Source: Loxodes magnus (Eukaryota > Ciliophora > Karyorelictea > Loxodida > Loxodidae). From it: a stretch of 64,000 nt of DNA. Under the pieces are notes generated by a model. That model saw nothing but the letters and a program-made list of their open reading frames with translations, was not told where the DNA came from and searched no databases. Positions 1 through 64,000 of this stretch are shown here, in pieces; position 1 is the first letter of the stretch; every line of letters starts with the position of its first letter. The position numbers and the translations under genes were made by a program. Location of the stretch: the NCBI GenBank assembly GCA_946699065.1, contig CAMPDV010000098.1:434001-498000 (forward strand). The letters are read 5' to 3'.

Positions 1-895
1 TATCCTTTTTTCAGAGCTCATTCTCATATTGAGACAAAAAAAAGAGAACCATGGTTATTTGGAACTGAGCACGTAGACATAATCAGAGCTGCAACTAAAA
101 TAAGATACCATTTGCTTCCATTTTGGTACACACTATTTAGAAAATACGCAGCAAATTCAGTTCCAGTAATAACTCCACTATTTATCAAAACCTAAAATAG
201 CCTTCTAGTGGTAGAAGACTAATTATTCGTTGGAAATGCAATTCTAGTGAAACCTGCTGTAAAGCCTTAATAAACAACTGTAGAGATAAAAACAGGTTAG
301 GATTATCCTTTTTGGTATAACTTTTATAACCTTCAAAAGATAGAAGTTTAAGATAGCTAAATAAGTAAATCAATTGATAAAAATGAGATAGGTGTTCTTA
401 TTAAGCCAGGAAGCATTTTAGTTACATACAAAGAAGTTTGTAAATCCACTGAGATGATGAAAAAGTTTCCTTATACACTGATAATTGCTTTAGACTAAAA
501 TCATTAAGCCTAGGGAGCTTTCTATGATGATGATTGGACAAGCTTTAGTTTCCAATAGGTAATTTATTATACTTCAGGGTCAATATGTAGAGTCTAATCT
601 CATCTTCAAGAACTTAGAACTAAGTAATGAACTTCTAAACAGCAACTATGAGAGTGAATCTTAACATCTGGTAGCAGAAATCAAGATATTAGGTTTGGAA
701 AAATAGTTTTAAGACGTGAAAGTCAATGTAAGACTTTAATATATAGGGAGTTTCTAAAGAAGCATAGTTCAGTTTTAGCAATTAGGTTTTGACTATAACT
801 AATCTAGAAATCAGATTAAACTAGGTATGGAAAATTAGTTTCGGTTCTTGAAAGGTTATTTCAGCTCGAACTTATACATTTATTCTATATATTGA
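1..895 (+). CDS. GANAB: Glucosidase II alpha subunit (GH31 alpha-glucosidase), C-terminal part
   Basis: The gene enters from the left edge in frame 1. The first residues read FFRAHSHIETKKREPWLFG, the strongly conserved GH31 stretch found in ER glucosidase II alpha, followed by RYHLLPFWYTLF. The enzyme trims the inner glucoses from N-glycans on new glycoproteins in the ER lumen. Catalytic residues lie upstream, outside the window. The visible part is about 290 residues: the end of the barrel plus the C-terminal beta domains. UAA/UAG encode Gln throughout. A 19-nt intron (559-577) interrupts the frame and removing it restores one frame to TGA at 893-895. The call is firm; the 5' part is missing only because of the window edge. 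Confidence 0.93.
559..577 (+). other. 19-nt spliceosomal intron in GANAB
   Basis: GTAATTTATTATACTTCAG lies between codons (phase 0). Removing it joins two coding stretches in one frame up to the TGA at 893. Same length and GTAA...AG form as the introns at 18832 and 21262. Confidence 0.85.
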
Positions 896-1420
896 AGTTA
901 AGCTTTACCTTTTATCCTCCTTACTCTAATTTTATTACCTTTATTAAAATAATTTTTATTGGTTTCCTTCTTTAGTCTCTCTTTTTTAAGTAATTGGTTT
1001 AGTAATTGAAGCAGTATTTATATATTCAAGGAATGACAAATAAAGCAAAGAGATTGAAAGATTATAAATAAATCTACTTTGATACTTAAAGTGAGAAATG
1101 ACAAAGCTATGCATATCTCATAGCTTGATAAATAAATCAGATTTAGAAGAAAAATAAGGTAAATAATCCAAACAGTCAAAAGTGAGTATTTATCAAATAA
1201 TTATCCAGCGCTGATTATAAAAATGCTTTATATGGAATATCATCTGATAGAAAATAGCTAGAAGGTAGAGAACGAAGATATTTAATATCTAATAACATTG
1301 CTGAATAAAGTTAAATCTGGCTACATAAAATCCTTTTAATCAGTGATTCTAAATATTAAACAATGAATATATTTAAGCTTCTCAGTTCTATATTATTCGT
1401 ATAAATTAAAGGTATATAAA
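896..1420. other. Intergenic, AT-rich
   Basis: I see no protein-like frame on either strand here. It holds the 3' flank of GANAB and the 5' flank of the ATG10-like gene. Confidence 0.5.
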
Positions 1421-2056
1421 ATGATAATGACCGAAACGGAATTTATAAGTTAAGCAAAGCTTCTAAGCTAAAAGTAAAGTGAGTGAAAAATATTGGAAGT
1501 AGATCAAGGGATAGAAACAAAGATATATATCACGAGTGAGTAGTTATATAATATATAAGATCAGATTCTGCTAATTCTTAATATAGTCTATAATAAAAAT
1601 TATTAGGTTCCAACTCTCTATTTTCGATTCCAGGATTTATAAGGCTAAGTAATGTATAATCAAGTTAAAGAAACGATTGTTGCAAATATTGAGGAGCATC
1701 CTATCCTCGGAACTACCTGATATTATTTGCATCCCTGCGAAACCTAAAATTTGCCTGTTAAGTATTTATTTGGATGAATGAGTGTAGTTCTTCGTAAATT
1801 TAACATTGAGCCTAAGATAGAACTATTGGAATTAATTAAGGTATGGGAGAGTTAAATTGGTATAATGGAGAGTGAGAAAAGCCTAGACTAAAATTTTTAA
1901 GACATAAAGTGTAAAATACGCGTTTTTTAATTTTTTTTTAAACTTAATCACAAAAGCCCTTTAAGTAAGATACATCAAAGTAGTCTAGTTTAAGGTATAA
2001 AAATTAATAAAGCTTCATTTTAAAAGCCTTTTAGGATATTCTAAATACTAAAATGA
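1421..2056 (+). CDS. ATG10: ATG10-like E2 enzyme of the ATG12 conjugation system
   Basis: ATG10 moves the ubiquitin-like ATG12 onto ATG5 during autophagosome formation. The frame carries the family hallmarks: YQVPTLYFRFQDLQG in the middle, then EEHPILGTTWYYLHPCET, with the catalytic Cys in HPC, then FGWMSVVL. TGA codes Trp inside both of the last two blocks. The start is the ATG at 1421 (MIMTETEFISQA); 1427 is an alternative. The C-terminus is unclear: after IELLELIK at about 1835 the frame loses protein-like character and stays open to a TGA at 2054-2056, which overlaps the ATG of the next gene. A short intron near 1845-1870 leading to an earlier TGA is more likely than this overlap. Family length (about 150-220 aa) fits either end. 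Confidence 0.8.
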
Positions 2057-2499
2057 TAAAAGCAATTCTAATTCTAAATAACCATGGAAAAGTAAGATTG
2101 ATGCGATTTTACAATAAACTGGATATAGAAAAAGAAGAATTAATCAAATAGCTGTTCTAACAAATAAGTTCAAGACCTGAGCATTCTTCAAATTTTCTCC
2201 CATCTAGTCTATTTGGATCTGATTTTAAAATAATATACAGAGTGTATGCTACCCTTTACATTGTATTTGTAGTAGACTCTGCTGAATCTGAATTAGGAAC
2301 TCTAGATTTAATATAAGTTTTTGTTGAAGTCCTCGATAGAGTTTATGGTAACGTATGCGAGCTTGATATTATTTTTCATCCTGATAAGGCATATTATATT
2401 CTAGATGAAATTGTAATTGGTGGAATGGTGTAGGAGACTAGTGCTATTGAAATTTGGCAGCAAGTAGAAAGCTATGAAAAGTTAGCTAAAGACAGTTGA
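2053..2499 (+). CDS. AP3S1: AP-3 adaptor complex sigma subunit
   Basis: 148 aa, no intron, TGA stop at 2497. The small sigma subunit of the AP-3 coat sorts cargo from endosomes to lysosome-related compartments. The start [20 protein letters not shown], the middle [40 protein letters not shown] and the end [20 protein letters not shown] follow the clathrin-adaptor small chain fold throughout. The features favour AP-3 sigma over AP-1 or AP-2 sigma, notably NNHGK at the N-terminus and GGMV near the end. Length matches the conserved core of the family. Confidence 0.95.
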
Positions 2500-2840: not shown

Positions 2841-3323
2841 TCATAAAATATCTTAAATATATCTGAATCAATTCTAATCTTTGTTATAGTAGAAACTCTC
2901 TTTTGTTCCTTTCCATTTTCCAGGCTTAAATTTCTAATTTCCTTTTGTAAACTACTGAGTTTTACTTCTAGCTTCTCTCCATTTTTTCATTACTTCTTCC
3001 TCTTATTAATCATATGCTTTGTTTCTCTGTTACCTGTCAAATTCATCTTATAATTCCTTTTGAAGGAATTCTTACGAAGGTGGTTCGTTCTAAACTCCAC
3101 GAAGCCAGTTATTCCATAAAGGATCATCTTAGCCTACTAAACCTCTAAAAGGAGAGTTTTTAAATTCTCTTTCACGTGCAATGGGAATTCCTCTTCAATC
3201 AACTACTTGATAAAATGCATTTCCATATCTGTCTCTTCCTACAAATATTTTCCCATCCTGCTCTCCATGCAATACTTATCTAAACTCAAATCACTTATTC
3301 CAAACTCTTTTAAGAAAGTTCAT
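2841..3323 (-). CDS. NDUFAF2: NDUFAF2-like complex I assembly factor (mimitin family)
   Basis: 160 aa, minus strand, convergent with AP3S. NDUFAF2 (B17.2L) is a mitochondrial chaperone for late complex I assembly, a paralogue of subunit NDUFA12. The core reads GRDRYGNAFYQVVDWRGIPI, matching the family pattern VGTD-GN-YY followed by NWRG; the Trp of DWRG is encoded by TGA. FKPGKWKGT near the C-terminus matches the late PGSW-type motif of NDUFAF2, which NDUFA12 lacks. Start ATG at 3323 (MNFLKRVWNKW); stop TGA at 2841-2843. NDUFA12 itself is the main alternative, but WRG and the tail favour NDUFAF2. Confidence 0.8.
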
Positions 3324-3702: not shown

Positions 3703-4803
3703 ATGGAACTTAAACCTTAAATAGTTAAGATTGAAGCTGATCCTATGGATGGACGTCATTCATTTGCGGTTGTTTGTCTTGATAAGCCTAAAAGAATAAT
3801 TGTAATAGGAGGTTGTAATAACAATGAAGAGCTGGGTGATGTTCTTATGCTTGAGTTGGAAAATAAGCATAAACACTGGAAAAACATAGTGAAGTTAAAT
3901 TAAACTACTACCGGATCTTGTGCTATTTAGCTTAAAAATAGAGTTTATGTATTTGGAGGCTGAAATTAAAAAGAGTACTGCAACACGTCTTACCTCATTA
4001 ACATTGAAAACAGATAATTCTAAAACTAAAACGAAAACAGAGATTATGAATTGCCTAATGGTAGAAGAGATGCTAAAATGCTGTATATTTAAAAAAGTAA
4101 CTCTGTACTGCTATTTGGAGGATGAAATTCAATCGATTGAACAAATTCAAATACTGACTATGATTAAGTCTGGTAACTAAGGCCTGATTGGAAATGAAGC
4201 ACACTTATGATTCTATAAGAATCGCCACTAGCAAGACGAGGACATACTATGCTAGAAACTAAAGATGGTGACATATTAATATATGGTGGAGTATATGGAT
4301 ATTCCAAAGTATTAAACGATATTTATATACTAAAAGTATCAGAAGGAATATGAGTTAAACCTTTGAAAGAAGACAAAGCTTAATAGATTCCTTATAGAGC
4401 TTTTCATACAAGTGTAATTTATAAAAATTAACTAGTGACGTTCGGAGGGTTAAATGAAAAATATGAGCTGTCTGCAGATTTTTGAAGCTTAAATTTAGAT
4501 GACTATTCTATTTAATATATATAGTTACCAGAAGCTCCTTAACCAAGATTTGGACATGGAATGGCTCTTTTCTAAGAAACTATTTTTATTTTTGGCGGAA
4601 TGGGTTACAATAATCAATGCTTTTCTCTAAGTGAAATATGAATGTGGGGTGAAGGAATTCAAGGGAAATGGAATTTCGGTCCCGAAGTTTATCCTCCTCA
4701 AATACCTGAAAATTTAAAAGTGTCAAGAGGATATCATGAAAAAAACCAATAAGACTTTAATCCTACAAGTTACGGTCCTTTAAATTAGAATCCACCAAGT
4801 TGA
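3703..4803 (+). CDS. Kelch-repeat beta-propeller protein
   Basis: 366 aa if the first plausible TGA (4801-4803) is the stop. Six kelch blades are visible from their double-Gly motifs: IIVIGGCNN, RVYVFGGWN, VLLFGGWNS, ILIYGGVYG, LVTFGGLNE and IFIFGGMGY. The paired aromatic residues after each GG follow the usual kelch pattern, and several of those Trp codons are TGA. Such a propeller is normally a protein-binding scaffold; no BTB or other partner domain precedes it. The same frame stays protein-like after 4803 as a very hydrophobic stretch (separate entry), so this UGA may be read as Trp and the protein may be longer. Confidence 0.85.
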
Positions 4804-5388
4804 ACAGTTTAGATATTATAACAAAAATAGGTTATTTAAAATTATTAATTCAAACACTCTTAATTATCATCAATCTACTTACAACTGAATTACTAGAAAC
4901 AATCTAATAATCTTGCTTTTAAATACCTTAGTATTTTCTAAGCAGGAGCTCTTCAGTTTATTAACTAAAGGCTATAAACTTATAAAATTATCTTCTTTTT
5001 GGCTTGGTTAGCAGACATTTAATGCTTATTTATCTGAAATTATTTATATATATAATGAGAAGCATCCTATGCTAATTCTTGCTTCTAACCTTTAATTATA
5101 AGCCTAAGAATTATTAACTAAGTGATCATCTATGTTGATCTGCTTATTATTACTCATGTTGCTTTAATTATTATATGAGTTAACTATTTTAGCTTGTAAT
5201 CAAAAGAAGCATCTAATAGTATTAAGATCTATTAAAAAAGAAATTTAATTGTATAGTATATGTATCTTTTTATAATAGCATGCTTATTTACTTACTTATA
5301 TGAAGTTATGATATTTAATAATAATATTAATCAAAAAACAAGACAGTTGCTCTCATATTCATTTCCGTTAGTTATGTTACTAAACTGA
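4804..5388 (+). other. Possible multi-TM extension of the kelch protein
   Basis: The kelch frame continues past the UGA at 4801 without a new ATG to a TGA at 5386-5388. From about 4990 it encodes several hydrophobic spans, such as IIFFLAWLADIQCLFIW, LIISLRIINQVIIYVDLLI and IVQYMYLFIIACLFTYLY, separated by polar turns. The pattern faintly recalls TMEM185-type membrane proteins, but I would not name it. Its 3' end overlaps the convergent FHA gene. In-frame TGA density is about what chance gives, so a non-coding reading is also possible. Confidence 0.4.
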
Positions 5389-6656
5389 TTGTACATTCCA
5401 TTCATATTATCCTGCCCGCCATTTATCATTTGTTGCTTTTTACATCTTTATATGAGCAAGTCGTGTTATCCCTTTAACTAAATCAACTTTTTCAAAACTT
5501 CGTTATATTTAACCTGGATGCTTCCTTAATCAACTTCTATTAAAGTTGCTTTAAAAATTGTATTCCACATTTTTATTATCATATTCTCTTTAATTTCGGT
5601 TTATTCACTTATATATAGCCAAGATCCATTTGTACTAGGTTTAGCTCCGTTTCCATCCACGAGAACCCATAAATTATCTTGCAATTCAATAGTTATCTGA
5701 ATTTTTGAAAGAGACTCGTCATTTAAAGTCACATCACATAGAGAACTCCGTCCTACGCTTATTTTGGTTTATTTTCCTTTGAAATAAAATGTTTCTCCCT
5801 ATTTCTAGCTATCGAAAATACTTATTCTTAGAATTTTATTTTTCAATTTTTTATTTTATTCCTTTTGATCGTTTCATGATAGTAAATTTATCATTAGAAT
5901 ACTCTCTCCAATTTGTATTAAGTAGTTATCTTTTAACTCTAAAGAACTTTGAATTCTTATGAAGCTTCCAAATCCTATTCCTAGATCCTGTATATAGTAT
6001 TTCAAGTTTTCTAAGCAAAACCATATTTTGATGCATTGTCCTCTTTCTTGCTGATTTTTGCGAACTGGAACTACAAAATCATTTATTATTTCATTATCTT
6101 TATTTAGCTACTTTGCCTTCTTATGCTTTTTAGCTCCAATAAATACAACTCCATCTTCATTTTTTTCCCTCAATGTATTTTTGAGTCCAGTTGAATAGAT
6201 CTAAAGTACTTAGCCTTTTTATAAAACATGTGAACTAGTCACTTTTAACTGAAGGCTTGGAACATAGTCTTTCAATAGAGTTAGTAGATGGAAAGTAGTT
6301 TCTTAGCTATAGTTGTACTTAGTCTCGTATTAGCCTTAATACTATGCTCCATTAAGCTGAGCTTATAATCTAATCTGCTTTATAAGATTTAAATTTTCTT
6401 TACTTTCTTGAACATCTTTATTATGTTCTGTAAGCTTTCGAACAGTCCCCTTTGGCTTTTTTTTTGCATCCTTATCAATACTTTAATAAGATGAGAATCT
6501 TCTTTTCTTATACTTCTAGGATTGAACGGTAATATCAGGGCTGTAATATCTATCTTCTTGAAACAGATACTAAGAGTTAATCTCTTGAGTATTTAGTTCT
6601 GAGTTGTTAATCATTGAAATATCTTACAACTATCGTTATCCACAAGCACCTCCCAT
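5331..6656 (-). CDS. Tandem FHA-domain protein with a possible lipidated N-terminus
   Basis: 441 aa, intronless, TGA stop at 5331-5333. FHA domains bind phosphothreonine. The clear FHA is at about residues 297-390: ISVGRSSLCDVTLNDESLSK with the conserved G-R-S and later S/N-x-x positions, then a NGSWLY strand (TNGSWLY replaces the usual NGT). A second FHA-like half at about residues 165-260 contains YYIQDLGIGFGSFIRI and LKDNYLIQIGES, a form common in protist FHA proteins. The start MGGACG puts Gly at position 2 and Cys at position 5, which fits N-myristoylation plus palmitoylation and thus membrane attachment (inference). The region between is Lys/Gln-rich. No kinase or phosphatase domain is seen. 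Confidence 0.85.
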
Positions 6657-7203
6657 TTAATAAGATATAGATAAGTTTTTTCTAATCTTCAAATAGCTGC
6701 TAAATTACTTAATTTTTACTACTTAATTTTATTTAACTTTACTATCTTATTTACGTATTTCCTTCATCTAACTAAATCTGGTCATTTGATAGCTTCAGTT
6801 TGCTTATTTTTAGTATTATGTAATACAATGTTATTGTATTTCAACTCCTATTATAAATAAGGGATAAGCATTCATATATAGAAGGAAAAAATGCTTTTTA
6901 TCTGAAATTAAACTGCTTGCTTTTGAGGGTAATTTTATTACATCTAACTTAGAGCTTTTTGTCTAGTTTTGATGATGTTAAGCTTTCTATAAAGTATAAT
7001 GAAAAGTCTTAATTTGGAAGACTAGATTATTCTATAATAAGTAAGGTATAAAACTCAGTCTTATCTGCATAAGACTTTATAGATGCTAGTTACTTTATAT
7101 TAGACTAGTCATTACTAAATAGTTAGTAGCGATACTATATAATCGAAGCTTTATCCCATTTCTTAAAAGATATCACTTCATTATTCAAAGTTTGTTCGTT
7201 ATG
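6657..7203. other. Intergenic, AT-rich
   Basis: Upstream flank of the FHA gene. I see no convincing frame on either strand. Confidence 0.45.
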
Positions 7204-8330
7204 AGTTCTCACAAATAGAGAAAAAAGGAAGTCAATTATCGCTAATTTTTTCACTAACGAATAATTGCTTCCTCCAGCTATCCTCAAAATGAGCATCTTT
7301 GAAATTTCTAATTATACAGAGTTTATTAATAGTTAGACTTATATATCAAATAAGGCAATTTTTAGTGTACTAAATAACTTAAAATCCAATCTATTTAAGC
7401 TATCTCATACAAATATAAAATAAGTACATACAATATCTTACCAAAGCTTTAGTATCAAAGTCTGAAAATAGAGATTAAAGTTATATATAAATAGAAGTAT
7501 TTGAATAGATCTAATACACTATATCAAAAGTATCTTTAGTATTAATTTTAAATTAGTCGTATCTTTTATTCTAAGGTCTATATGATCGATTGAAAACAAG
7601 ACCTAATATTATTTTAGTTAGTAAAAGGTTTATGCTTAAACAAAAGAGATTGCTTTTAAAGGTCAAACTATACCTGATATATTCCTTGTATTTCATTTTC
7701 GAAAATAGAAAGCAGAATGTTAGGTTATTAGATAAGCTTTATAGATATAAAATCCTGATTGGCTTAAAAGGAGAATATATGCTTGAAAATCTAAAGGAGT
7801 ATATTCTAGTCATGCCAACTTCATTTTAACTTGCTATCACAAAGAAAGCAATTAAGAAATATTTCCTATCTTTTATTAATAAAAATCCTTAGTATTTATT
7901 CTAAAAATAGTTCATAATAAAGCAGAAAAATTGTTGCTTATCATTCTTGATTTACACCTAGTATGACAGGATAAGCAAGATACATAACTAGTTTCTATGA
8001 TCACTTCTATAAAAATTTCTATTAAAATGAATCAGAATAAGGACCATATAAAGGTAAAAATAGCTAATCTTGTTATTAATATTTGAGTGTTAAGTATGAC
8101 TTAAGAAAAAGCAGTAGTAAAGTTAAAAAATAGAAGCTTGTAGATTACTTACTTTTATAAATCCTATCTCTTAAAATATCTTCAAATTTTGATAAAAATC
8201 CTTTTAGATTAGCTGTGGAGAATCATCATTTTACTTATTAACTTCTTTTGCCTCAACTTTCTTGATTTATACGTTTTACTAAAATGAAGCAAAGAAGCTA
8301 TAGAAGAACATCAATAGAGGCTGAAAATTT
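7204..8330 (+). other. Doubtful coding stretch, possible decayed or multi-intron gene
   Basis: Three overlapping plus frames each hold protein-like pieces. One frame from ATG 7204 reads through about 370 codons with few TGA and includes VAYHSWFTPSMTGQARYI near 7940-7990. A second frame near 7255-7400 gives LPPAILKMSIFEISNYTEF. I could not join the pieces with the short GT-AG introns used elsewhere, and no family is recognisable. It may be a broken gene, a gene with introns I missed, or chance openness in AT-rich DNA. Confidence 0.25.
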
Positions 8331-8478
8331 AAGCATAAGTTTACTCTTACTAAGGTTATAAGTCCTATGATATTAAATTAGAATAGAGCATAGAGCAAGC
8401 ATAGGTTAGATAAAAGAGTAGGAATAAAATAATTAATAGTAATTAAAGGAAATTAATTAATTAGAGTATAATATTAAT

Positions 8479-9516
8479 ATGAAAGCATTATTAGTTCTTA
8501 TTTCTTTTCTATACTTTAACTTGGTCCATAGCGAATATTGTGTTAGATGAATTGAAAGAAAAGCTTTTGAAAATACTTGCTTCAATCGAGAAGAAGTTAT
8601 GAGTTATATTCCTTAATGTGATTCTAGCAAAGTATGCACCCTTTATTCATTTTATGATGGAACATCTTATTCTAACTGTCTTTCTAAGGCTTCTTATTCA
8701 TCAATATATGAAAAATACTGCCCACGAAATTTAATAGATTATTATAATTATTTTAGATGTAGCAACTATTGCTATTCTGGAGAGTGCAATTGAGAGTATT
8801 ATTAAGAAGAACATGGGGATTGGGAGGAAGGATTAACAAATAATGAAGAATGTGATGAAAGCGATGCTTGTGCATCACACTAATGCTTATGTGGTCCTTC
8901 TCCATCATCAAATGGAAGATGCACAACCAGTGTTTATGATGATTCATTTAAATATTTATGGAATAAAATATGCAACAGAGAGACAATTACACTAGAAGAC
9001 GCATGCATTTATTACCTAAAAATAATAATGGGCCATTTCGTCACATCAGTTTATGAAAATTAAGCTTAAATGCCTCACCTAAAGAATTATAATGATTTTA
9101 AAGATCTTATTGACGTTTATAAGTATAAAAATGGAGACGACCCTGATAATAATAGCAGTGACAACAGTAAATTATGGTTAGTGCTATTAATAATATCTGC
9201 TATTGTTGTGATCCTAGTCATATTTCTTGTAGTGCTATGCTGTTGTAGATATAGAAGCAAAAAATTCAGAACTGGTAGTAAGAAACTCCAAGGAAGCGAA
9301 CTAGAGCCAAAATAATTTTATAACTAGCCTCAAAAAGAATTCACTATGGAAAGACAAGAATTAGTATATTAATCTCCTAGAAATATATCCTAAAATCAAA
9401 ATGCGCCTTTATTAAAGAAAGAGGAACATAAAAATTCTATTTTTGTTCCACCTGGTGAAGAACTTATGGAAAACGAAAGAAAAATTCAACTTATTGATGA
9501 TTATTATAAGAACTGA
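8479..9516 (+). CDS. Secreted-type, Cys-rich single-pass membrane protein
   Basis: 345 aa, no intron, TGA stop at 9514. It starts with a signal peptide (MKALLVLISFLYFNLVHS), followed by a roughly 200-residue ectodomain with about 20 Cys, many in closely spaced pairs (YCPR, CSNYCYSGEC, CDESDACASHQCLCG). One transmembrane span follows near residues 233-255 (LWLVLLIISAIVVILVIFLV), then CCCRYRSKK, a palmitoylation-like juxtamembrane patch, and a polar cytoplasmic tail of about 85 residues. The layout is that of a type I surface protein. I do not recognise the family. Its 3' end overlaps the minus ORF at 9486 by about 30 nt. Confidence 0.8.
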
Positions 9517-9731: not shown

Positions 9732-9882
9732 TAATACATTCGAGTTAACTTGTTTAGATGCACCGTTTAAGCAACCAATTAATAAACATAATTAAAAGAG
9801 AGTAAAGCAAGGTTATTTTTAACTAATATTTGATGATATAATTAGTATAACAAAGAAGTAATATTGAACATATTTAATAGTA

Positions 9883-11331
9883 TCATCTTTTCTTACTTTT
9901 CTATTTCTTTTTATTCCCTTGAACTAAAACTATCGAAGAGTTCTAAAACATTTCTTAGTTGTTTTCCATCTTTTGATGAAACTCTAACTCTTTTATTTAC
10001 TATTTCAATTCATTAATTTCGTTTTCTGCTTCTTGATTCCATTCATATACTTTTTTACTGGTGGATTGCTATTTTTCCCTTAGTTTTTCCTAAAACATTA
10101 AGTTTATTTTCTCTTCCATTTCTATCTTTTAAAGTAACTGTTGCTTTTCCTCTTCTAACTACTTTTGTATCTCTTCTTGCTTATTGATTCTTTCCTGTCT
10201 ATTCTTTTTTTTATTTATTTGCTTATTCATTTTAATTATCCTTTAGTTTAATGTAGCCTCTTTATTTTACAGCATTTAAACATAATGTTCTCTGGATGCT
10301 TCGAGTTAAGTAGTTAGCAGCTGATTATATTCTAAAGTGATAGCTTCCAGCTTTTTATTGAATAAGGTTCTTTAATCTAATTTACTGATATCGCCTGATT
10401 GTACTTACTGCTATTACTGCTAGATGTCTTATATATCTTCTTACATTCCTATCAATTTTCCATCCACGTTGTTTATGATAACTCTATGCAGATTTTGCTA
10501 AGAAGCGTAATCCCATATTAGTTAGCTGTTCAAATTTTTACTATAGACATGTTGAGATTCATTGTAATGGAGAATTGCATGCTCCTAGCATCCTACGTTT
10601 CCACATAATAAGCAAAGCCATAATTCTGAATTATTAACGCTATTGTTACAAAGGTCACATTTTACTTCCTCAGGAGGCGAAATGTGATATCTGCACACAG
10701 GACATGTTTGTTCATGCCATTCTAATAAACATTTCCAATGGAATCTATGCCCACAAAGAACAAAAAGAGTATATTAAATATCCAAAGAAATATGCTAGAA
10801 CAATATTGGAGGCTAAATTGGTTAAAAGCCAAGCTGCTTTTGTTCTAATATCTTTTCAAAGGCATCTAGACAAATCGGACACTTTTCCTCCTTAAACTTT
10901 TAAGGAGTCAAATTAATCCATGACTTGAATAAAATTTCAGGCGAACTAAACTAAGAATTTTCCAAGTTTTAGTCAATATCAGAAATAGAAATCTGCTAGA
11001 CAAAGCGTAGTTAGCATTTATCTTATTCAATGGAGTTAAATTCTTTTCCATTAAACTGCTAATAAAACTCTATTGCTATTTACGTATTCTTCATTTTCAG
11101 GAGGATTAGATAATCACAAGGCGATGCACAGTTTAACACTCTCATTTCATCTATATTTTACTCAAATTCTTCAACGAATTTACAGAACTCTGGAGCATAA
11201 ATATGGCAAGGAATATCAGTAGCTAGAATATAAGGACTTTGGATTTCTTCAAAGTTAACTTCATCATAGACTTCAATATATCCTGTGTGCAGCTCTATTT
11301 TAGGATTTCCGATTCAATACTAAATCTTCAT
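9883..11331 (-). CDS. BRAP: BRAP2-type E3 ubiquitin ligase (RING-H2 + UBP zinc finger + coiled coil)
   Basis: 482 aa, no intron, TGA stop at 9883. Domain order matches BRCA1-associated protein 2: an RRM-like N-terminal domain (about 1-120), a RING from CPICLDAF near residue 151 to CPVCRY near 212 with LCGHRFHWKCLLEW between, a UBP zinc finger from CDLCNN to CGNVGCQEH (about 224-290), then a long coiled coil (about 330-450) and the basic end SSIVLVQGNKKKQKSKKR. The RING has an unusual insert of about 30 residues between its first Cys pair and the CGH motif. In other eukaryotes BRAP2 binds ubiquitin and nuclear localisation signals and tunes Ras/MAPK signalling. Start ATG 11331. Confidence 0.93.
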
Positions 11332-11604: not shown

Positions 11605-14394
11605 TAAATAAAATCTAGTTACACTTAATATTGACTAATTATTAGATTTATAGAAAAGTGTTTATAGTGTAACTGTGTAGGCTACTATTGCTTATATAAA
11701 GATATAAGTCTTAAAATACTTCCTTGGCTATTCTTATCCTATTTTATGTATACCAGCTATTAAAAATTACTTGTAAATATAAAATTAATCATAGTTATTC
11801 ATTTTTGCCTTTAAATTAAGTTGTTTGACGTTTTAAAAATTTTAATTTTTAAGGCCATAAATCATCTTTAGGATATTCCTGGAAATGATTTTTAATACTG
11901 TTAGCTTTTGTAATTTTTGTAATTTTTAAATCAGTCTTTAATACTCTGAATCAGTACTAGATCTAAAGATGTTTCTCATACCTTCCATTACTTTTATTGA
12001 TCTAAACCACGCGAAATATATTGAATACCTTGTTTTCTCTAAAGCTTATTGTTTCCTTCTAATGTTTTATTCTCTTCTAACCTATTTATTCAATACTCAA
12101 GATAGATCTCTGTTTCTATGATAGATAGAAAAGTAGTGCATTTAGAAGTGTTTACAGTAAAGCGTTATATTAACTATCTCCTTTTTGAATTAATTCCCTC
12201 TAGCTTATCTAACTATTCAATTTTTACGCTTAGATCTATAAAAGAGAAAGCAAATAGTAAATCCTATCTAAATTGAGTTTATCTGGAATAAGAAATAGAG
12301 AGAAGGTATTAATAATGGTATAAAGTTAAAATTATGTATTCTAGTTATCTAAATATTGCTAAAAGCTAGTACTATGTATCTTACCATTCAAAGCGTTTGC
12401 ATCAATAAATAACAATATTGGCGCTCTATTAGTGGATAATTTAAATTGAGAGATAGGCTAAATATAGTCAGAATCTCAAGTTAAAAGCTATAAAGCATAA
12501 ACACATAAAATCAATTTCTACTAACTTTGCTTGAAGTAGGAAAATGGCTATTAGCAATAGACTTGAACTAAAATCCTTTCATATTAAACTATACTTTAAA
12601 TAATATAATCAAACATAGCTAAAGGTTATGCATATCTAATAATACTTTAAAAGAATAATATTTAAAATAGTTCTATTAAGAAAGATTATAAGCTCTACTA
12701 AAAATACAGTGTAAGCATAATGCTCTTATTAGTACTAAAATAGTTTGTTTGGAGTATAAATATAAGTTGTAATCCTTATAGAGCATTTAACTTGCTTGAT
12801 TTAGGAACTATAGTCAGCAATGAATAGTTCTAATCTTAGGAATAATCCCTTAAGTTTTATAGATTTGATTTTAGCGGTTCTATCTATAAACTCATTTGCT
12901 TAACCTCTTTTTTATATTTCTAGATAATTATTTACTAAAGATATTCAAATCTTAAATTTTAAGTCACTTATTACATACTAATCAAGAAAAAAAAAGATCC
13001 AAAAATTCTCTCAAATTTAAATATTTGGAATTCCTCATTTTCTTTTCATTTTATAAAAGAAAGATCTTTAATAATAAAATTTACTTCTATGTTTATCTCT
13101 AAAGCTCCTTTAATTACTTCAAAAATCATATAATCCCTCACAACTATGATAAACTTAATCCCTCTCCTAATTAAACCCTTCTAACAAACTCTCCAATCTA
13201 TAAAGCAAAACTATAATATTCTTATTTCAAATGCTGATTATCTATCTTTGAATAACTATATAATCTAACTATTTATAATGATAAAATACTACTAAGGATG
13301 ATAAATTAGCTGTATATATAATAAATAAAGCTTACCTTATAATTTCAAATTTATATTTAAAACTGTATTTCTATCTTCCTCCTTAATAGATGGTTGCTAT
13401 ATTTTTGCCTATTTATCTAGATTTATAAGGGAATAAGTTAGTCTACTTTCTATTATTTGTAAGTTCCATCCTAATACCTTTCATAACCTTATAAAGCAAA
13501 AGTTTAAACAATTAACTTAAGTATATTTATCTATTGAAAATCCTTTGTGTAACTTTAAGTCTGCCAATAATCTTTAGCCTTCTAGTTATCTCTAATAATA
13601 TCTTAATAAAAGGAAACTAGTAAAACTATGCTGCTTATCTTATTCACTTTACTATTCTTAAAGTAGTCATTAGTATTTATCATTCTAGCCTTTAGATTAT
13701 AAACCTCTCTTCCATTTTAAGCTTCATACTTTGCTTACTTATAAGATAGAGAGTAAGTTTTAATGATTTGGATATCTTTATAACTTAATTCAGCTGCTTA
13801 TGCCCTTTGAAATATATAAAGGAGTCTAGTATTAAAAGCAAGGTGATACTCTATACTCTATGCTCAATCTTATGAATTTAAATATTACCTAACTATATAA
13901 AAATCTGAACTCAGTCTTAAAAAAGAGATAAGTAGAAGGTATTAAAGGAGAGCTTAGTATAATGAATGCTATTATAATAATAGTAAGTAACTTTAATGAT
14001 CATTAATATAGAAGAGCATCTAGTTATATAGCTAGTCTAATTAAAGCTAGGGGTATTAAACTAATCGCTTAGGACTAAATATAACCAAAATGTATTTTGA
14101 AAGAATCTTCTATAATAAGTTGCTGTTCTAGTATGATAAAGTTGGGATATTGTCATTAATAAGAAAATTCCCTTTAAGTTTGCATAAAAGACTATAAACA
14201 GTTAAATATATTAAAATAGGTATTAAGGTTTGCTAGTAAACTTAGCAAAGGGAATAGAAACCTAAATTAGATAATAGATAAATAGTAATTCAGCCAGTAA
14301 GAGAATAGAAGACTATTTCTCTTTCATAAGAGGAAGAGGATTGAATAACATATTACTGCAGAAATGTTTTAATCATTATCATTTAAAATAAAAT
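11605..14394. other. Gene-poor AT-rich stretch
   Basis: About 2.8 kb. All frames on both strands are broken or low in complexity, and AGCTT/AAGCT-like words are frequent. I see no conserved protein, RNA gene or clear repeat array. It could hold decayed sequence. Confidence 0.5.
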
Positions 14395-25649: not shown

Positions 25650-25774
25650 AGAACCTATAAAGCATTCCTAATTAGGTAAATAGCCTATTTCATAATAAAG
25701 CTCAACAATCATGAAAAAATTATTTTAACTTTTAGCAAAATTAACTATTCTCTAAAATAATTAACTCTGCTTAT

Positions 25775-36475: not shown

Positions 36476-36494
36476 ATTAAATATTAAAAAAGAT
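36476..36494 (+). repeat. Left copy of 19-bp direct repeat (putative target-site duplication)
   Basis: ATTAAATATTAAAAAAGAT is repeated exactly at 42123-42141, on the other side of the LINE ORF. Flanking bases differ on both sides, so the match ends sharply. Confidence 0.7.
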
Positions 36495-42122: not shown

Positions 42123-42141
42123 ATTAAATATTAAAAAAGAT
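42123..42141 (+). repeat. Right copy of 19-bp direct repeat (putative target-site duplication)
   Basis: Exact match to 36476-36494. The A/T-rich content lowers its significance, but the shared AAAAAAGAT end and sharp borders support a duplication. Confidence 0.7.
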
Positions 42142-51622: not shown

Positions 51623-53420
51623 TCATTTTGCTGCCTTAATTTTATTATAAACGAAGTAGCCAGTAACAGCAATGCCTGCTACTAATGTTAAAATTTTGAA
51701 CCAATTTCCAGAATCTTTTTCTTGATTCTTTTTTTCTGGAGTTGATTCTTTTTTCTATTCTTTTTTTTGTACTGATGGTTAATTCTTCTCAGGATTCTAT
51801 TCTGTTTATTAAGTTTATGCTTCATTTTAAGTGTTCTACTCTTCAGGTCTTGGAGAATTTTATTTCTATTCTTCTGTTTTCTTGAGTTTTCCACCAAACA
51901 TCTCTTTTTCTTTTTATTCAGCTTGCTTTTTCAATTTCTGAAATCAATATTAAAGTATAACTTACAATTGCTTCTTCATACAATTTTTTAATTGATTCTT
52001 AATGCTGTAGAAGATAAGCAGCCTTGGATATTTATATGGCTTCTTCATAGTTTTATAATGCAATCAATGCTTCAGCTTTTCTCATCATTGCTTTTGTGTT
52101 TTATGAATCTAATCTCAAAACATCATCAGCTAATTATATAGCCTCTTGCCATTTCTTTAGTTTAATACAGCAAAGAGCAGCATTGTTTTAGCATGCTATT
52201 CTAATCTTTTCCAGATTGCTTAAGATTTACTCATCTTTACAATTTGGAAAGTATTATTAGAACTCGTAGCAGTGCTAAGTTCCCTCAAGATACTCTTATA
52301 ACGACATGTCATATAAATTCTACTTGAAGAAATCATTTCCAAGTTATTTCAGTTAATTTCCTTTTTCTATTCATTTTTCTGGAGTATTTTCTTCAACTTA
52401 TTAGGTTTCTTTCTTTTCAGCCTATTATGATTCTTGTTTTTCAACATTTTATGGTTCTTATTTTTCAACTTTTTATGGTTCTTGTTTTTCAGCCTATTAT
52501 GGTTCTTATTTTTCAACCTTTTGTGGTTCTTGTTTTTCAACTTTTTATGGCTCTTATTTTTCAACCTTTTGAGGTTCTTATTTTTCAACTTTTTATGGTT
52601 CTTGTTTTTCAGCCTATTATGGTTCTTATTTTTCGACTTTTTGAGGTTCTTGTTTTTCAACTTTTTATGGCTCTTATTTTTCAACTTTTTATGGTTCTTG
52701 TTTTTCAACCTTTTGAGGTTCTTATTTTTCAACCTTTTATGGCTCTTGTTTTTCAACTTTTTATGGCTCTTATTTTTCAACTTTTTATGGTTCTTATTTT
52801 TCAGCCTATTATGGTTCTTATTTTTCGACTTTTTGAGGTTCTTGTTTTTCAACTTTTTATGGTTCTTGTTTTTCAACCTTTTGAGGTTCTTATTTTTCAA
52901 CTTTTTATGGTTCTTGTTTTTTTTCAGGTACATTTTATTATTAAGTAGCGACTTAAGTTTTTTCTTCCTTTTAAACTTCCTTAACAGTAACTTATTATGT
53001 TTCTTCTACTTTTTAATTTTATTGAGGTTCTTATTGTTTAACTGGCTCCTATTACTTTTAAATAGCTGTCTTACTTTATTCCTCAGTTTTACTTTATTTA
53101 ACTTCTTCGCTTTTCCTATTTTCTTCTTACTTTTATAATTCTTAAGCCTGTTTTACTTCTCCCTTTTATGATCCTTATTCTGCAGACTAACTCTTTTACT
53201 CTTCCTAAGCAATAGGTTTTTCTGGAGGCTTTTAAACTACTTTTTATTCCTAAACTTGCAGTTTTTCATCTACTGGCTAAGCTTATTACGGTTCTTTATC
53301 TGATTAAGTCTAAACATCAGGAGATTCTGCAGGTTCTTCCTTTACTACCTGAAGCTGTTCACTTTTTAACTAGGATTCGCCTAACTTTTAAAATTCTTCA
53401 GGTTTGTTTGCCTAAGCCAT
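51623..53420 (-). CDS. Tail-anchored TPR co-chaperone-like protein with a KQEPQKVE repeat region
   Basis: 589 aa after one 28-nt intron (51938-51965), TGA stop at 51623. Residues 1-165 are Gln/Glu/Lys-rich, then about 20 copies of the octapeptide KQEPQKVE (about 165-335). A three-motif TPR block follows (about 357-490): GNDFFKQNLYDMSLQEYLEG, IACQNNAALCCIKLKKWQEA and SQNTKAMMRKAEALIALQNY. The exit helix KKLYEEAIKLKKQAEQKEKE with MFGGKL resembles FKBP-type immunophilin co-chaperones, but no FKBP domain is present. A single hydrophobic span at the very end (ILTLVAGIAVTGYFVYN, then KIKAAK) marks a tail anchor. The TPR clamp could bind Hsp90/Hsp70 tails at a membrane (inference). Confidence 0.85.
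51938..51965 (-). other. 28-nt intron in the TPR gene
   Basis: Reads GTAAGTTATACTTTAATATTGATTTCAG on the minus strand. Removal joins LYEEAI to KLKKQAEQKEKEMFGG and keeps the frame to the tail anchor. Confidence 0.85.
52430..52922 (-). repeat. 24-bp tandem repeat array inside the TPR gene (about 20 units)
   Basis: The unit encodes K-Q-E-P-Q-K-V-E, with variants Q for K at position 6 and A for V at position 7. Units differ mainly by synonymous changes, including CAA versus TAA at the Gln codons, and in places alternate as pairs, suggesting expansion of 48-bp or longer blocks. All frames of both strands stay nearly free of stops, so antisense ORFs here are shadows. Confidence 0.9.
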
Positions 53421-57690: not shown

Positions 57691-60202
57691 TCAGCCTTCA
57701 AAGTTACTATTATTTAAACTGACTTCATTTATTTCTTCAACTTCGTCTTAATGTTTACTTGCATGGTGCATTCTAGATTGATTTATGCTACTTTTATTGG
57801 AGGAGGTTGATTAAAAGTTTTTATCTTGAGGAATTTAAAAATCAAATATCTGTTCGTTATCAATTGTTAAGTCCTCTTTATGATTAGAAGAATTTAACCT
57901 TTTGTAATGAATTCGGTATCCAGAGTCAAAAGTTCTATTTCCAGAATTCAGAGTGTTGCTAACTTTTCGGATGCGATAAAGCTTAATTCGAGGGAATTAT
58001 GAGTCGAAAATTATTTTTGATTATAAATCAAAATGGTTTTTGAGTATAGCTCGTTACCATTTCGATCCATATGAGTTATTTAAATTATCTCTATAGAAAA
58101 ACTTCAAAATAATCTTACGCTTTTTTACTGTTTAGTTAAGAAGTCATTCTAGGTTTTAATGAAAGGCAATCAGATTTCACTACTTATTATGGCTTTGATG
58201 GGTTTTATTTCCACTCATACCTAACAGACATTTAATTAAATTACTCTTACCTTGAAGTGAGGGCCATTTACTTGGATGGATTATTTCCTTATTAGTTATA
58301 ATAAGGTTGATATTTTTGCAATTTCTCATGTATATGCTATAAGTTATTGTCATACATAGAAAGCTATAGAAGTTAAGTAATTTTTAGTTCCTGGCTATTT
58401 TTACCCATTATTTGCTTTGGAGAAAATTGCTAGAAGATAAGATTTCTTTACTTAGGATCAAGCTTTTAAAGTTGATGAAAACGGTTTGGAAACGTTTTAT
58501 TCTGCAGTTTAGTACTATTATCTCTCATTCAATATTCCTATTATTATTTTTGTGTTATTTAATTTTGCTTTATCAAATTATCCACCACTTTTGTGGAAGT
58601 ATAAGCTTCTTCAGGATCATATTTAACTTGCTTGTTTCTATTTTTAAAGTCTATATCTTCATAGGATTTTTTAAAACTCCTTAAGGTTTTAGGAGGGGAC
58701 TTAGACTTTTATTTATTTTTATGAATCCTTGCAGTTTCAGATTTTTACCTTCTATTTTTAATTAACTCTATTTTTTTCTTTATTGGGCTGATTTTCTTTT
58801 CTACCTTTTCTTTTTGATTGGATTACTTTAGTTCCTTATTTGACAATTCATTTATTTATTTGCTTTCATTTTATTTAGGACTAAATATTTAACTATTATC
58901 ATTTGTAAAATCATCTTCATATACGTTTTCCTCGTATGGCTATCCAAAATCTAAACTTTTATAAACATTTTGAACTTGAGAATTATCTTCTTGTCTATTT
59001 TATCCTCTTGCAGGTGGTCTCTAGCTATATAATTAAGTGCTGAATGAGTTTTCATTTTAATCAAAACCTGAATGTTCAATTCTAGTTTAATAGCTTTCTC
59101 TTCCAGAAGTGAATTTAGAGTTTTCCATCTTTTTTAGATTCTCATTATTTTAGGAGGCAGAAATTTTTTGATTTTATAGACTTTCTTCAAAATCACTTTC
59201 ATATTTAGCTTCCAGTTCTTCATAACTTTCATCATTTTGATTTTTCCCTATTTCTTAACTATGGAGATTACTCTCAGTTTTCTTAATATTGAGAGTAAGC
59301 TTTTATCTTTCACTTTAATCTTAGCTTTATTAATCACTTTTTTATTCATTAATATTATTTCATTTTATCTTCTTGGCCATTTTCTTAGAATCTTCTTACT
59401 ACTTATTTTAAGGTGAATTTTAGGAAGATTCTTTCTCAAAATCTTCGTTTTCATAATCATCTTAGCTTTATACTTAAAGAGTGCTTAATTAAGGATCTTA
59501 TTAATTTGATATAGTAGTGCCTTGGATTTTTTTTCCTTCGTTCTATTGTTAAATCTTTTTACTTTGATTAAGGAGTTTGTTATTTTCTTCTGATACATCA
59601 AAAGATTGTTCGTTTTCGTTTTCTTCATTTTCTTTATTTTACTCAATTTATTAATTAACTAATAAACTTTAATCTTATTGCTTTTTACTATATGATACAC
59701 TTTCTTTTTTCTATTCTTTTTATATTTATTTATTTTCTGAATCACTCTTAACACTTTTTTTACTCTAATTTTGCTCTTCGTTTTTACTTTCTATTGATTA
59801 CTAATTAGGCAATGTGGATAGTTTATTTTCCGCTTGCTCAGCAATCTATTTTTTATTTTATTCTTATTCTTAAGGCCGTTATTTATTATCTTATCCTATT
59901 TTACTCTCTTCATCTTTCTGCCTTTAAATTAAACTCTCCCTCTCACTTTACTATTCTTAATCTTACTCCTATCTTTGCTAATTTTCTTACCTTTTTTCTT
60001 AGCTTTCTATTTTATCAATTTTTTTACTTCTAAAGTTCTGTTTTAACTTAAATATAGCCATCCTCATTTAGTACTTATCTATAGCTCTCGAAATATTCTA
60101 ATCTCTCTGTTAAATTTAGCTTTACTTTTTATAAAGCATTCTTTTAACTTACAAGCTTTTCCTATCACTAGCAAACTATTCAGCTTGAAAGCTTTAGAAC
60201 AT
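57691..60202 (-). CDS. Large Gln/Lys/Glu/Ser-rich, mostly disordered protein
   Basis: 827 aa from the first in-frame ATG at 60202 (MFQSFQAEQFASDRKSLQVK) to TGA 57691, with one 28-nt intron (58091-58118). Residues 1-400 are low-complexity coiled or disordered sequence (QEKRQENQQRQEQDQEQQSE). Acidic patches such as DYEDENEDFEKE-like runs and PYEENVYEDDFTNDNSQ lie mid-protein, followed by KKSPPKTLRSFKKSYED-type basic blocks. The C-terminal part (LNNSYGSKWQRAILKNHFDL; FPRIKLYRIRKVSNTL) looks more ordered. Acidic EDDF-type motifs occur in microtubule-associated proteins, but I cannot name it. The frame stays open about 360 nt upstream of this ATG, so a missed first exon is possible. Confidence 0.75.
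58091..58118 (-). other. 28-nt intron
   Basis: Reads GTAAGATTATTTTGAAGTTTTTCTATAG on the minus strand. Removal joins TSQLNSKKA to DNLNNSYGSKWQRAIL. Same length as the intron at 51938. Confidence 0.85.
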
Positions 60203-61476
60203 GATTCCTATCTATTAATCTTAATCTTCTTAATTTTGCTTCTAGCGGATAGATAGTTTTTATCTCTTTTTTTTAAAGAAGATCTAAAGTTTGACAATCT
60301 TAAGGATTTAGTCTTAGTTAAAATTAGTTTCCATTTATACTCTTATTTAAACTTTATTACCCCTTTAACTTTATTTTCTATCTCAACTCTCCAACTCTTT
60401 ATTTTATCTCCTATTTCTGACTTTTAGCTCTATATTTGAGAGATATTTTTAGCTAAGGTTATATTTTTATTATAATTAAGAGAGGAGGTGTAGCTAAAAG
60501 CTATTGATAGATTTAAGTGAGGAAGGAAGAGAGAACTTAATAGAGCGTAAGTAAATGCAATGCAGTTTTAACCTTCAAATCTTAAAGTAAACTTGAATCT
60601 TAAGAAGCTTTTCAGTTATTTAATATGCAAGCAATTATCTAGATTCTATAGTAAGGACTAAATAAAGCTATATTATACAAAAGGCTGCTAGCAACACTTT
60701 TAAAAATTATCTGTATTAATTACCTTTATTAAAGCTTTCTAATATATAATTCCATTCCTTAATAAGCTGCTAATTATTTCCTACTTTACTGTATTTAGAA
60801 CTTCAAAACTAAATTAGACTAATGATATCCGCTCAAGTAAGAGTTGAATTGAATTATATTACTATTACTTTTACAGCTTAGGATATAGATTAACTGATAG
60901 CTACTAAATAGCTATAAATAATGGATATACTTAGAATACGATAAACTTTCTTAATTGGTTGATTTATTTCTTTATTAAAAGATATTTTATATCTCAAGCT
61001 ATTTAATCCAAGTAATCTATTTATGTATAAAACTAACTTTGCTATCACGTCTAGTTTATTATAAAGCTAAGCAGAAGTAGCTTTTCAGTCAGCTTAAGTC
61101 AATAATTCTTAAAAGCAAGATAGAACTTAGAAGCATTTAAAGAAGTTCAGTTAAAACCTGATTTTGCTTAAATACTCCTTAGAAAATCTGACATATAATA
61201 TTGCAAATTAATCTCTAGATCTATAAAGAAAAAGAAGCTTAATAAGCAAGAAACAATATAGCACATTTCTAGGATGTTATAAATAAAAGCTTAAAGATGA
61301 ACTGTTTTTTTACACTTCTAATCATATTCTTTATGTGAAGAATTTAGATTTCTATTTTATAAGAAATAGATCTACATCTACTGAATAAAGGATAAATGTA
61401 TTGAGATGAATGTTGTAAAGGAAATTAAAATATGGAATAAAGGATTTATTTTATCTTACTATATAACTAAATAAAT
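60203..61476. other. Upstream flank and intergenic, AT-rich
   Basis: The first 360 nt keep the minus frame of the neighbouring gene open (SEIGDKIKSWRVEIENKVKG) without an ATG. The rest shows no gene. Confidence 0.4.
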
Positions 61477-61785
61477 TCACAAACTGCTTCTAAATTACTC
61501 TCTCTATAGCTATTTCAGCAAGATTTGCAACATCATTAAAACTACAAAAACCCAAAACACCAGAACTAATTTATTTACCTCTTTTAACCGATGAAACATC
61601 TTTTAAGCAATTGACATGCTCTGCAACTCCTTCCTTCTTTACTTCTCCTTTTCAATTTCCTAGAAAGTCCTAGAAATTTCAATACAGTTCTGAACAGTTT
61701 GGTTCTTATTAGAGAAGTCAAGGAAAATTCTTTTTTTAAGTAGCGTTTCTTTAACATTCTTTTCAATTTTAATACTATCAGCCAT
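61477..61785 (-). CDS. Small tail-anchored coiled-coil protein
   Basis: 102 aa, ATG 61785 (MADSIKIEKNVKETLLKKRI) to TGA 61477. A charged helical segment (ISRTFQEIEKEKQRRKELQS) leads to a single hydrophobic span near the C-terminus (LVLVFWVFVVLMMLQILL) and a short polar end. This is the layout of tail-anchored ER/Golgi proteins, including small SNAREs, but no SNARE zero-layer residue could be placed with confidence. No intron. Confidence 0.65.
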
Positions 61786-61985
61786 TTTATAAATATCAAG
61801 CTAGTTACTAATACCAAGTAAGCTTATAATTATAGTTTAATACTTTAAACTTACCCTTAATACCTTGTGTTCTTACTTATAATGCTTATTTATTATATCT
61901 TTGAATAGCCAAATTATATATTATCCTAGGGCTAGTCTTCCTTTCTATGAATCTAATTTAAATTTAAATTTTTATTTCGTTAATA

Positions 61986-63131
61986 ATGAGCGAGTCAGAT
62001 CTCCCGGAATGTCCTATTTGCTAGGATAAGCTTGCGAAGGAACTAGTGACAACTCCTTGTGGTCATGTATTTCACAATGATTGCATAAACTAGGCTATTT
62101 TCCATAACTAGAAGTGTCCTTATTGTAGGAAGCAAGTATTAGTGTCGTAAGTAATTAGTCTTCATTTCAATGTGGAATCAAAGAATAAGCAAAACTTAGA
62201 GTAATTAAGTGAATCTATTGGAGTTAGTAAAGAAGATGCTAAGAATATTCTAGTACTACAAGCTAAACTAGAAGCTTTGAATGAAACTAACTAGAAGCTC
62301 AAAAAGCAAAATGAAGATTTGTAGGATACAACTGAGAACTTCAAAAGAACTAATTAAACGCTTCAAGAACTTTTAGAGAGTTAGAAAAGTGAATATAGTA
62401 GATACAAAAATGAAAACTTTACCCTTAAAATAGAAAACGAATAAAAGACCAAGGAATTAATTAAAGTTAAGGAATTAAACTAAAATAAGTTTGAGGAAAA
62501 TAGGAATTTATTACTGTAGAATAATGAATTAAGAAGAAAGCTAGCATTGCATAATAAATTGAACTAGAACGAGCAATTGAATTTTGAAAACTGAATTAAT
62601 GAAATAAGGCATAACAGAAATTTCGAAGAGTAGTCTAAGATATTTTACGAAACTCTTCAAATCAAAAACTTAAAAGTAATGGAATTAGAAACAATAATAA
62701 AAGAGCAGAAATAAGCAGTGGATAAAAGTACTGAAACTATTAAAAAGTAAACATATCAGATCTAAAAGCTAAATGAAAATAGCAAAGTCACCTGTCAAAA
62801 TTATGAAGAAAGAATCTAGTTACTTTAAGCCTAGATAAATCAAGATGGAAAGAATGATATTCAGCAGCAAATCAAAAAGAGAAAAATAGAGATAGGGTAA
62901 ATGACTAATATTTTGTAAAGTTAACCAGAATAAAAATTTCAATTCAACAATTAGCCTTAAATTTTATAGTAACAACAGAATAAGAATAGTTAAGTCATTA
63001 AAGGAAGCTAGGCATAGTTTGTACCTGGAACGAACTAGGAAAATTTCAATATTTATAACAACTTCAACGCAAATAAAAACAATCACAATAATTTTAAACT
63101 TAAAATAGGAAAGACAAATTTCAAGCTTTGA
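61986..63131 (+). CDS. RING-finger coiled-coil protein, TRAIP-like
   Basis: 381 aa, no intron, ATG 61986 to TGA 63129. An N-terminal C3HC4/RING-H2 finger (about residues 9-50) reads CPICQDKLAKELVTTPCGHV, then FHNDCINQAI and CPYCRK, with all eight metal ligands. A coiled coil follows from about 70 to 300 (LVLQAKLEALNETNQKLKKQ). The tail is Gln/Asn-rich and ends IGKTNFKL. An N-terminal RING followed directly by a long coiled coil is the TRAIP/NOPO layout (an E3 ligase in genome maintenance), and the RING is compatible, but other RING/coiled-coil ligases share it. Confidence 0.8.
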
Positions 63132-64000
63132 CACTTATTTGATTATTCATTTCTTTCTGTATTTTTTATAATTGTAATATTTATTCTAAAATAATAACCA
63201 ATAACAACATAAATATCTAAATTTAAAGCTAATTAAGAAAAAGAGCTACTTTAAGAAATCTAAGCTTCTTTATATTTTAATTGAGTAGGTAGCTTTAATC
63301 GTTTATATTACCTAAACCTTCAATCTAAATTCATAAATCCACTCCCCGTTATTACTCTTTTAATAGCGAAGTCTGATTATAAGATTAAGTTATAAACCTT
63401 GTTCATTAAGTAGAGCTAAGTTAGTACTTTAGTTTCTACTATAGATAGAATTAATCAAATTAAAAAGGTTTAATAACACAGCTTAACACTAAGTTAAGCT
63501 TAAAGCATAAATGTATGCTTTGAGAGCTTAGCTTTACTTAAATACTCTAATATATAAAACTTTATTACTAAATCCTAAAGGTAAATACTAATAAGCATTA
63601 TAAACTAATTATAAAAGTGATGGAATTAGCAGATAATTTTTGATATGTTTCTTATCAAATTTGACTAAAAATAAGCACTGTAATTATAAACTATAAGTAA
63701 GATAAATGAATTAAAAGTAGTTAGATACAACAGTTCTTTATTTTAAATTAAAGCAAATAATTTTAGAATCTAAGTTCCTATACTTTTATTCTCACTGATA
63801 GCTAAATAGGAAAAATCTGTTCTATTTAAATGTTCAACTTTAAGATTAATTGATAGGTATAAAAAATATAAGCTAGAGTTTTAAGTTGAAGAATTTAAGT
63901 AGAAAGGGATGAAATTAATAGGAAGTTTAAGGGTATAGTAAGATAGTAGTATTTACATTAATGTTTAATTATCATTAAATGAATTTAACCATGTATGGCC
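63132..64000. other. Intergenic to window edge
   Basis: AT-rich DNA with no supportable gene or RNA. Confidence 0.5.

Follow-up and report, generated by a model that had tools for sequence, protein, structure and literature searches.

Can a single codon specify an amino acid within a gene and also be the only signal for the gene's end? This question is raised by the 64-kb stretch of DNA introduced above (the window, by which we mean the whole stretch at its full length), in which an earlier note, made from the sequence alone, had read UAA and UAG as glutamine and UGA as both tryptophan and the sole stop. The answer favored here, with a probability of roughly 0.93, is that the window belongs to the nuclear genome of a karyorelict ciliate with NCBI code 27, most probably Loxodes or a near relative. 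The match to code 27 that the note had drawn was sustained by a masked-codon test in which glutamine was the best-scoring residue for UAA and for UAG and tryptophan the best for UGA, with UGA found as a stop as well. A codon that is at once an amino acid and the sole stop tests how ribosomes distinguish the end of a gene from its middle.

The window is AT-rich, with a GC content of 0.20 to 0.30 in 2-kb steps. Genes were modeled on both strands with a self-trained codon model and then a gene finder that allowed short introns and restricted stops to TGA, with a higher penalty on any other end; its preference for introns of 17 to 19 nucleotides (nt) was set after the Loxodes literature (PMC11441545) was known. 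Besides the MHYT model discussed below, models were corrected by hand as follows: the start of the AP-3 sigma gene was moved to position 2053, the SLC35F gene was given its full frame, and the BRAP2 gene was shortened to the start chosen by the permissive gene finder. Codon counts were made on the 14 homology-supported genes with complete ends and on 18 genes in all, the edge-cut GH31 gene being left out.

The Pfam gathering score was reached by 15 proteins: GH31, AP-3 sigma, an NDUFA12-like protein, kelch, FHA, BRAP2, VPS13, anoctamin, MHYT, a long interspersed nuclear element (LINE), SLC35F, a dual-specificity phosphatase, a proteasome beta subunit, TPR, and RING. The LINE aside, these are ordinary eukaryotic nuclear genes. 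In 14 of the 15, one or more Pfam families have in-frame TAA or TAG inside their best-scoring stretch; the exception is MHYT, which contains TGA. The claim that about twenty proteins become continuous once TAA and TAG are read as glutamine therefore holds in kind, with the number lowered to 15; four further gene models had no Pfam match at the gathering score.

The longest frame in the window is 235 codons with the standard stops and 550 codons with TGA as the sole stop, and TGA-only frames of at least 300 codons number 34, versus 14.6 in order-2 shuffles. We rejected open-frame length as proof of the code, because the shuffles give TGA-only frames nearly as long (mean longest frame, 484 codons).

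Meaning of the three codons within genes

The most informative gene encodes an anoctamin (TMEM16) of 806 amino acids on the plus strand (28335 to 30755), identified by Pfam and homologue alignment, with no intron, 6 sense TGA codons, and 42 TAA or TAG codons. A first protein search with it returned two hits, perhaps owing to its glutamine-rich N terminus. In the test itself, TAA, TAG, and TGA were masked, because the answer should not be assumed, the protein was aligned to the best 120 of 346 homologues, and codons were scored over residues 335 to 790. For TAA, glutamine scored best at 5.7 (next residue, -0.1; 7 columns); for TAG, glutamine again scored best at 3.0 (next, 1.6; 3 columns); and for TGA, tryptophan scored best at 7.7 (next, 1.4; 4 columns). 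As a control, 41 codons were represented by 4 or more columns, and 33 of them recovered the residue assumed for them. The comparison with homologues proposed in the earlier note, a tabulation of the residue at every UAA, UAG, and UGA codon, came out in these anoctamin columns as glutamine, glutamine, and tryptophan. A phylogenetic tree of the anoctamins places the window protein in a clade of 42 tips, among them a Stentor protein (support, 0.747), which also speaks for the favored reading.

Individual columns of this alignment bear out the placement of TGA at conserved tryptophans in TMEM16. The TGA at 29637 to 29639 (plus strand, residue 435) stands opposite tryptophan in all 120 of these best-matching homologues, while the TGA of the LANW site singled out in the note (residue 378) has tryptophan in 47 of 120. 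At residue 371, 52 homologues have tryptophan and 68 have phenylalanine, and at residue 474 half have aspartate or glutamate, tryptophan not being among the six commonest residues. The TAA at residue 532 lies opposite glutamine in 83 of 120 and the TAG at residue 608 in 76 of 120.

Eleven pairs with PDB chains from seven other genes likewise gave glutamine as the best residue for TAA (56 cells) and for TAG (22 cells); in the control, 48 standard codons had at least 8 cells, and 40 of these were recovered. The kelch alignments were too weak beyond one block, and a PDB search with SLC35F gave no match. A preference for residues other than glutamine at in-frame TAA or TAG, which was to have spoken against the proposed code, was not seen in either the anoctamin or the PDB columns. 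Judged from these alignments, UAA is read as glutamine, and so is UAG, for which the evidence is the 3 anoctamin columns and the 22 PDB cells. Under the standard code, all 14 homology-supported genes contain internal stops, as pseudogenes or an assembly artifact would; random stops would favor no residue at all, whereas the TAA and TAG columns favor glutamine and the TGA columns favor tryptophan, and this explanation is the least credible of those considered, with a probability close to nil.

Pfam scores obtained with TGA translated in different ways also point to tryptophan. In the Anoctamin family, tryptophan gave 324.2 bits, and an undefined residue (X), cysteine, arginine, phenylalanine, and tyrosine gave 302.9 to 311.0, so that tryptophan leads by 13 to 21 bits. 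In VPS13_VAB it was the best of seven readings at 124.2 bits, the others giving 111.8 to 122.6, with phenylalanine next at 122.6. The EamA family, in the same protein as SLC35F (43770 to 45002, minus strand, 410 amino acids, 4 sense TGA codons), also scored best with tryptophan, and the endonuclease of the LINE (36509 to 42052, plus strand) gained 3 bits with tryptophan over X. The kelch protein (3703 to 4803, plus strand, 7 sense TGA and 20 TAA or TAG codons) gave its highest score with tryptophan in 4 of 8 Pfam families. The kelch example of the earlier note, GGW, was judged on these scores.

Several scores weigh against tryptophan. Within the kelch protein, it loses in Kelch_4, Kelch_6, and NANM, and in PF24681, its top family, lysine gave 194.9 bits over three stretches versus 171.7 bits over two for tryptophan, values that are not comparable. 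SLC35F does not separate tryptophan (93.2 bits) from arginine (93.1 bits), and the RVT_1 domain of the LINE is 0.6 bit worse with tryptophan (88.8) than with X (89.4). The NDUFA12 model ranks tryptophan last of five readings in the NDUFA12/NDUFAF2-like protein (2868 to 3323, minus strand, 2 sense TGA codons), at 26.3 bits versus 29.3 to 29.8; the use of its WRG motif, presumably one that NDUFAF2 itself carries, as an example of TGA read as tryptophan is consequently unsupported. The 8 TGA cells in the PDB alignments, all outside anoctamin, hold no tryptophan and give no clear answer.

Some of these scores are what would be expected if UGA encoded cysteine, selenocysteine, or arginine, as in other ciliates or in selenoproteins, since NDUFA12, Kelch_4, and Kelch_6 score cysteine, arginine, tyrosine, or phenylalanine at least as high as tryptophan. 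Such a residue is very hard to reconcile with the invariant tryptophan opposite anoctamin residue 435 and with the lead of tryptophan in Anoctamin and VPS13_VAB, and we consider it highly improbable. The reading of internal UGA as tryptophan is well supported by these sequence comparisons, mainly those of anoctamin and VPS13.

Gene ends and introns

The gene whose end is fixed independently of the gene finder is PSMB1 (50441 to 51100, minus strand), which encodes a proteasome subunit of 219 amino acids recognized by Pfam and by alignment of its C terminus. It contains 8 internal TAA or TAG codons, and its alignment with the subunits of human and Plasmodium extends to their C-terminal residue, a conserved aspartate, directly after which stands TGA (50441 to 50443). 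The yeast chains in the same set align only to residue 213. Among the four hits of a protein search, three full-length relatives likewise end in aspartate. This one gene shows that UGA is a stop as well.

Every one of the 18 final gene models has TGA as its last codon, though this was the only stop that the finder offered, and no model needs a UAA or UAG end under that same setting. That TGA stops and introns of 17 to 19 nt were in part built into the finder counts against taking the models as independent evidence. One TGA that the finder's codon model took as a stop is moreover better read as sense: in the MHYT-domain protein (34766 to 36235, plus strand, 489 amino acids, 5 sense TGA codons), the TGA at 35204 to 35206 encodes residue 147, inside the best-scoring Pfam stretch (residues 124 to 168), and the score is 63.6 bits if translation stops there, 88.7 if it is read through as tryptophan, and 85.6 if read through as X. 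On these Pfam scores, that TGA is sense inside the MHYT domain. The statement that TGA ends every resolved gene accordingly stands for 18 of 18 models, and independently for PSMB1, subject to the stops imposed by the finder and to the sense TGA at 35204. As for the genes recommended as clean tests, PSMB1 is excellent, the AP-3 sigma gene (2053 to 2499, plus strand, 148 amino acids, 4 in-frame TAA or TAG codons, TGA stop; Pfam) is usable after extension to 2053, and VPS13 is a single gene only after introns are removed.

The VPS13 gene (17117 to 25649, plus strand; Pfam) encodes 2,825 amino acids as modeled, with 11 sense TGA codons. Two frame changes between its homologous parts demand two introns, placed at 18832 to 18850 and at 21262 to 21280; a third, at 25302 to 25318, is predicted only. 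When GT-AG candidates that restore the frame were sought with no length preference, the first place allowed 19 to 40 nt and the second 19 or 25 nt, and none of the candidates was 15 or 16 nt long. The two frame-demanded introns agree with the Loxodes magnus pattern of introns mostly of 16 to 25 nt. Other introns, of 17 to 28 nt and including three of 17 to 19 nt, are predictions of a finder that prefers 17 to 19 nt, and a scan of the window for short-intron splice motifs found 63, at chance compared with a shuffle mean of 55.

Past the stops, the GC content of the first 60 nt is 0.205, versus 0.298 in the coding sequence (CDS) of the 14 genes. In the same 60 nt of the 18 genes there is no excess of in-frame UAA (22, versus 25 and 24 out of frame) and therefore no backup-stop signal. 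T follows TGA at 9 of 19 modeled stops, and A follows 35 of 67 sense TGA codons, small numbers taken from the models as they stood before the MHYT correction.

Codon use near gene ends

Counts in this section are for the 14 genes unless all 18 are named. In their 9,928 codons, TGA accounts for 55 of the 116 tryptophan codons and TGG for 61, and sense TGA makes up 0.55% of all codons. The last 48 codons of all 18 genes hold no sense TGA; the expectation for the last 40 was 3.3 in the 14 genes and 4.3 in the 18. This absence was partly built in by the gene finder.

The deficit of TAA near the ends was not built in by the finder. Among glutamine codons, TAA makes up 15 of 50 in the last 40 codons and 522 of 951 in the rest of the genes (P = 0.0007). 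Permutation of glutamine codons within genes gives a P of 0.002 for the 14 genes and 0.0007 for the 18. In the last 20 codons, TAA is 7 of 24 versus 530 of 977 glutamine codons (P = 0.02), and the permutation gives P values of 0.013 and 0.018 at 20 and 60 codons. In a first set of 19 models, no other codon among the 44 tested was as extreme as TAA. To be set against this is that the 40-codon limit was picked after a profile in bins of 20 codons had been inspected. TAG is not depleted in the last 40 codons and, if anything, is in excess there (16 seen, 11.0 expected).

A depletion of UAA is what would be expected if UAA still terminated there, as in a Condylostoma-type code (NCBI code 28), in which all three codons are sense internally and all three are possible stops near the mRNA end. 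Condylostoma magnum, as described in the available part of PMC4967479, loses all three codons near gene ends, whereas UAG depletion, by which code 28 would be recognized, is absent from the window. PSMB1 ends at TGA, the VPS13 introns cannot be 15 to 16 nt long, and sense TGA is far more frequent than the 0.042% of codons reported for C. magnum in that same part. We regard code 28 as unlikely, if the least unlikely of the alternatives, and retain code 27, with UGA as tryptophan inside the gene and a stop at its end.

Two features of the gene ends, their lack of sense TGA and their UAA deficit, lend indirect support to the idea that the meaning of UGA depends on context near the mRNA end. By a mechanism drawn from the literature, eRF1 would compete for internal UGA with the tRNA-Trp(CCA) that reads it, a tRNA whose anticodon stem is shortened, and at the last UGA the proximity of the poly(A) tail would decide the contest for termination. 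One possible meaning of a deficit of UAA and not of UAG is that UAA near the end is still recognized by the release factor. That UAA retains weak eRF1 recognition near the mRNA end, UAG being truly free, and that UAA for glutamine has been purged from the last 40 or so codons in favor of CAA and UAG, is a tentative proposal that we think somewhat doubtful. If true, the code would be ambiguous at two codons, with UGA a stop or tryptophan, UAA a glutamine codon that is risky near the end, and UAG pure glutamine. The parts of PMC11441545, PMC4967479, and PMC13092985 that were available contain no test of a release-factor cause for the deficit.

Other features of the window and comparison with known systems

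The reading frame of the LINE, which encodes an endonuclease and a reverse transcriptase (Pfam), contains 162 TAA or TAG codons and 11 sense TGA codons in 1,847 codons and so stays open only if it is read with a code of this kind. A perfect 19-nt direct repeat (36476 to 36494 and 42123 to 42141) flanks the intact frame. It is the longest word shared by the two 150-nt flanks, a length reached in 1 of 2,000 shuffles, and is likely a target-site duplication of a recent insertion.

The other genes were recognized by Pfam. The 3' part of a GH31 glycosidase gene (1 to 851, plus strand) is cut by the window edge, with two introns of 19 nt each (559 to 577 and 728 to 746) predicted by the permissive gene finder only. 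An FHA-domain protein lies at 5331 to 6656 (minus strand), a BRAP2-like protein with BRAP2 and zf-UBP domains and an uncertain start at 9883 to 11331 (minus strand), a dual-specificity phosphatase with a gelsolin repeat and 5 sense TGA codons at 46532 to 48856 (minus strand), and a RING-finger protein at 61986 to 63131 (plus strand). The gene of the TPR protein (51623 to 53420, minus strand) contains, at 52392 to 52921, about 22 copies of a 24-nt tandem repeat encoding octapeptide repeats, among which TAA or TAG and CAA or CAG interchange at like glutamine positions. Pfam describes the MHYT family, found here in a ciliate, as a bacterial signaling repeat.

No Rfam match at the gathering score and no tRNA was found in the 64-kb window. 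Nothing above the Pfam gathering score was found in any of the six frames of three long stretches, 11605 to 17116, 25650 to 28334, and 30756 to 34765, or on the minus strand of 6657 to 8707. In the remaining gaps, some frames were searched with Pfam, one minus-strand frame each in the case of 44360 to 46532 and 60062 to 61985.

The published systems are compared here from the parts of the cited papers that were available. Both code 27 and the role of context in it have previously been described for Loxodes magnus (PMC11441545), so the window is a confirmation and not a new code. Its value is that of independent confirmation with test genes, PSMB1 for the stop and anoctamin for tryptophan, together with the deficit of UAA but not UAG. 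In L. magnus, as in the window, UAA and UAG both stand for glutamine, and UGA stands for tryptophan and for the stop, the sole stop in L. magnus and probably so in the window; UGA and UAA, but not UAG, are depleted before stops. The two also share AT-rich 3' flanks (in L. magnus, 3' untranslated regions have 18.6% GC versus 33.5% in the CDS), short introns (mode, 17 nt; mean, 19.3 nt; 15 to 16 nt in heterotrichs), and LINEs of 5 to 6 kb. Loxodes is reported to have a tRNA-Trp(CCA) whose anticodon stem is 4 bp long (PMC13092985). The published depletion spans about 20 codons, and the UAA deficit in the window is clearest over 40, from few genes; no contradiction was seen in the features compared.

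Position-dependent termination was argued for C. magnum and Parduczia by Swart et al. in 2016 (PMC4967479). Parduczia sp. gives the three codons the same meanings and uses UGA as the stop, but UGA usage is 0.120% there versus 0.55% in the window, and UGA depletion alone is named in the part of that paper available. C. magnum (NCBI table 28) is alike in that all 64 codons are sense and the stop is set by position near the mRNA end; it differs in that UAA and UAG terminate too and in the 15- to 16-nt introns of heterotrichs.

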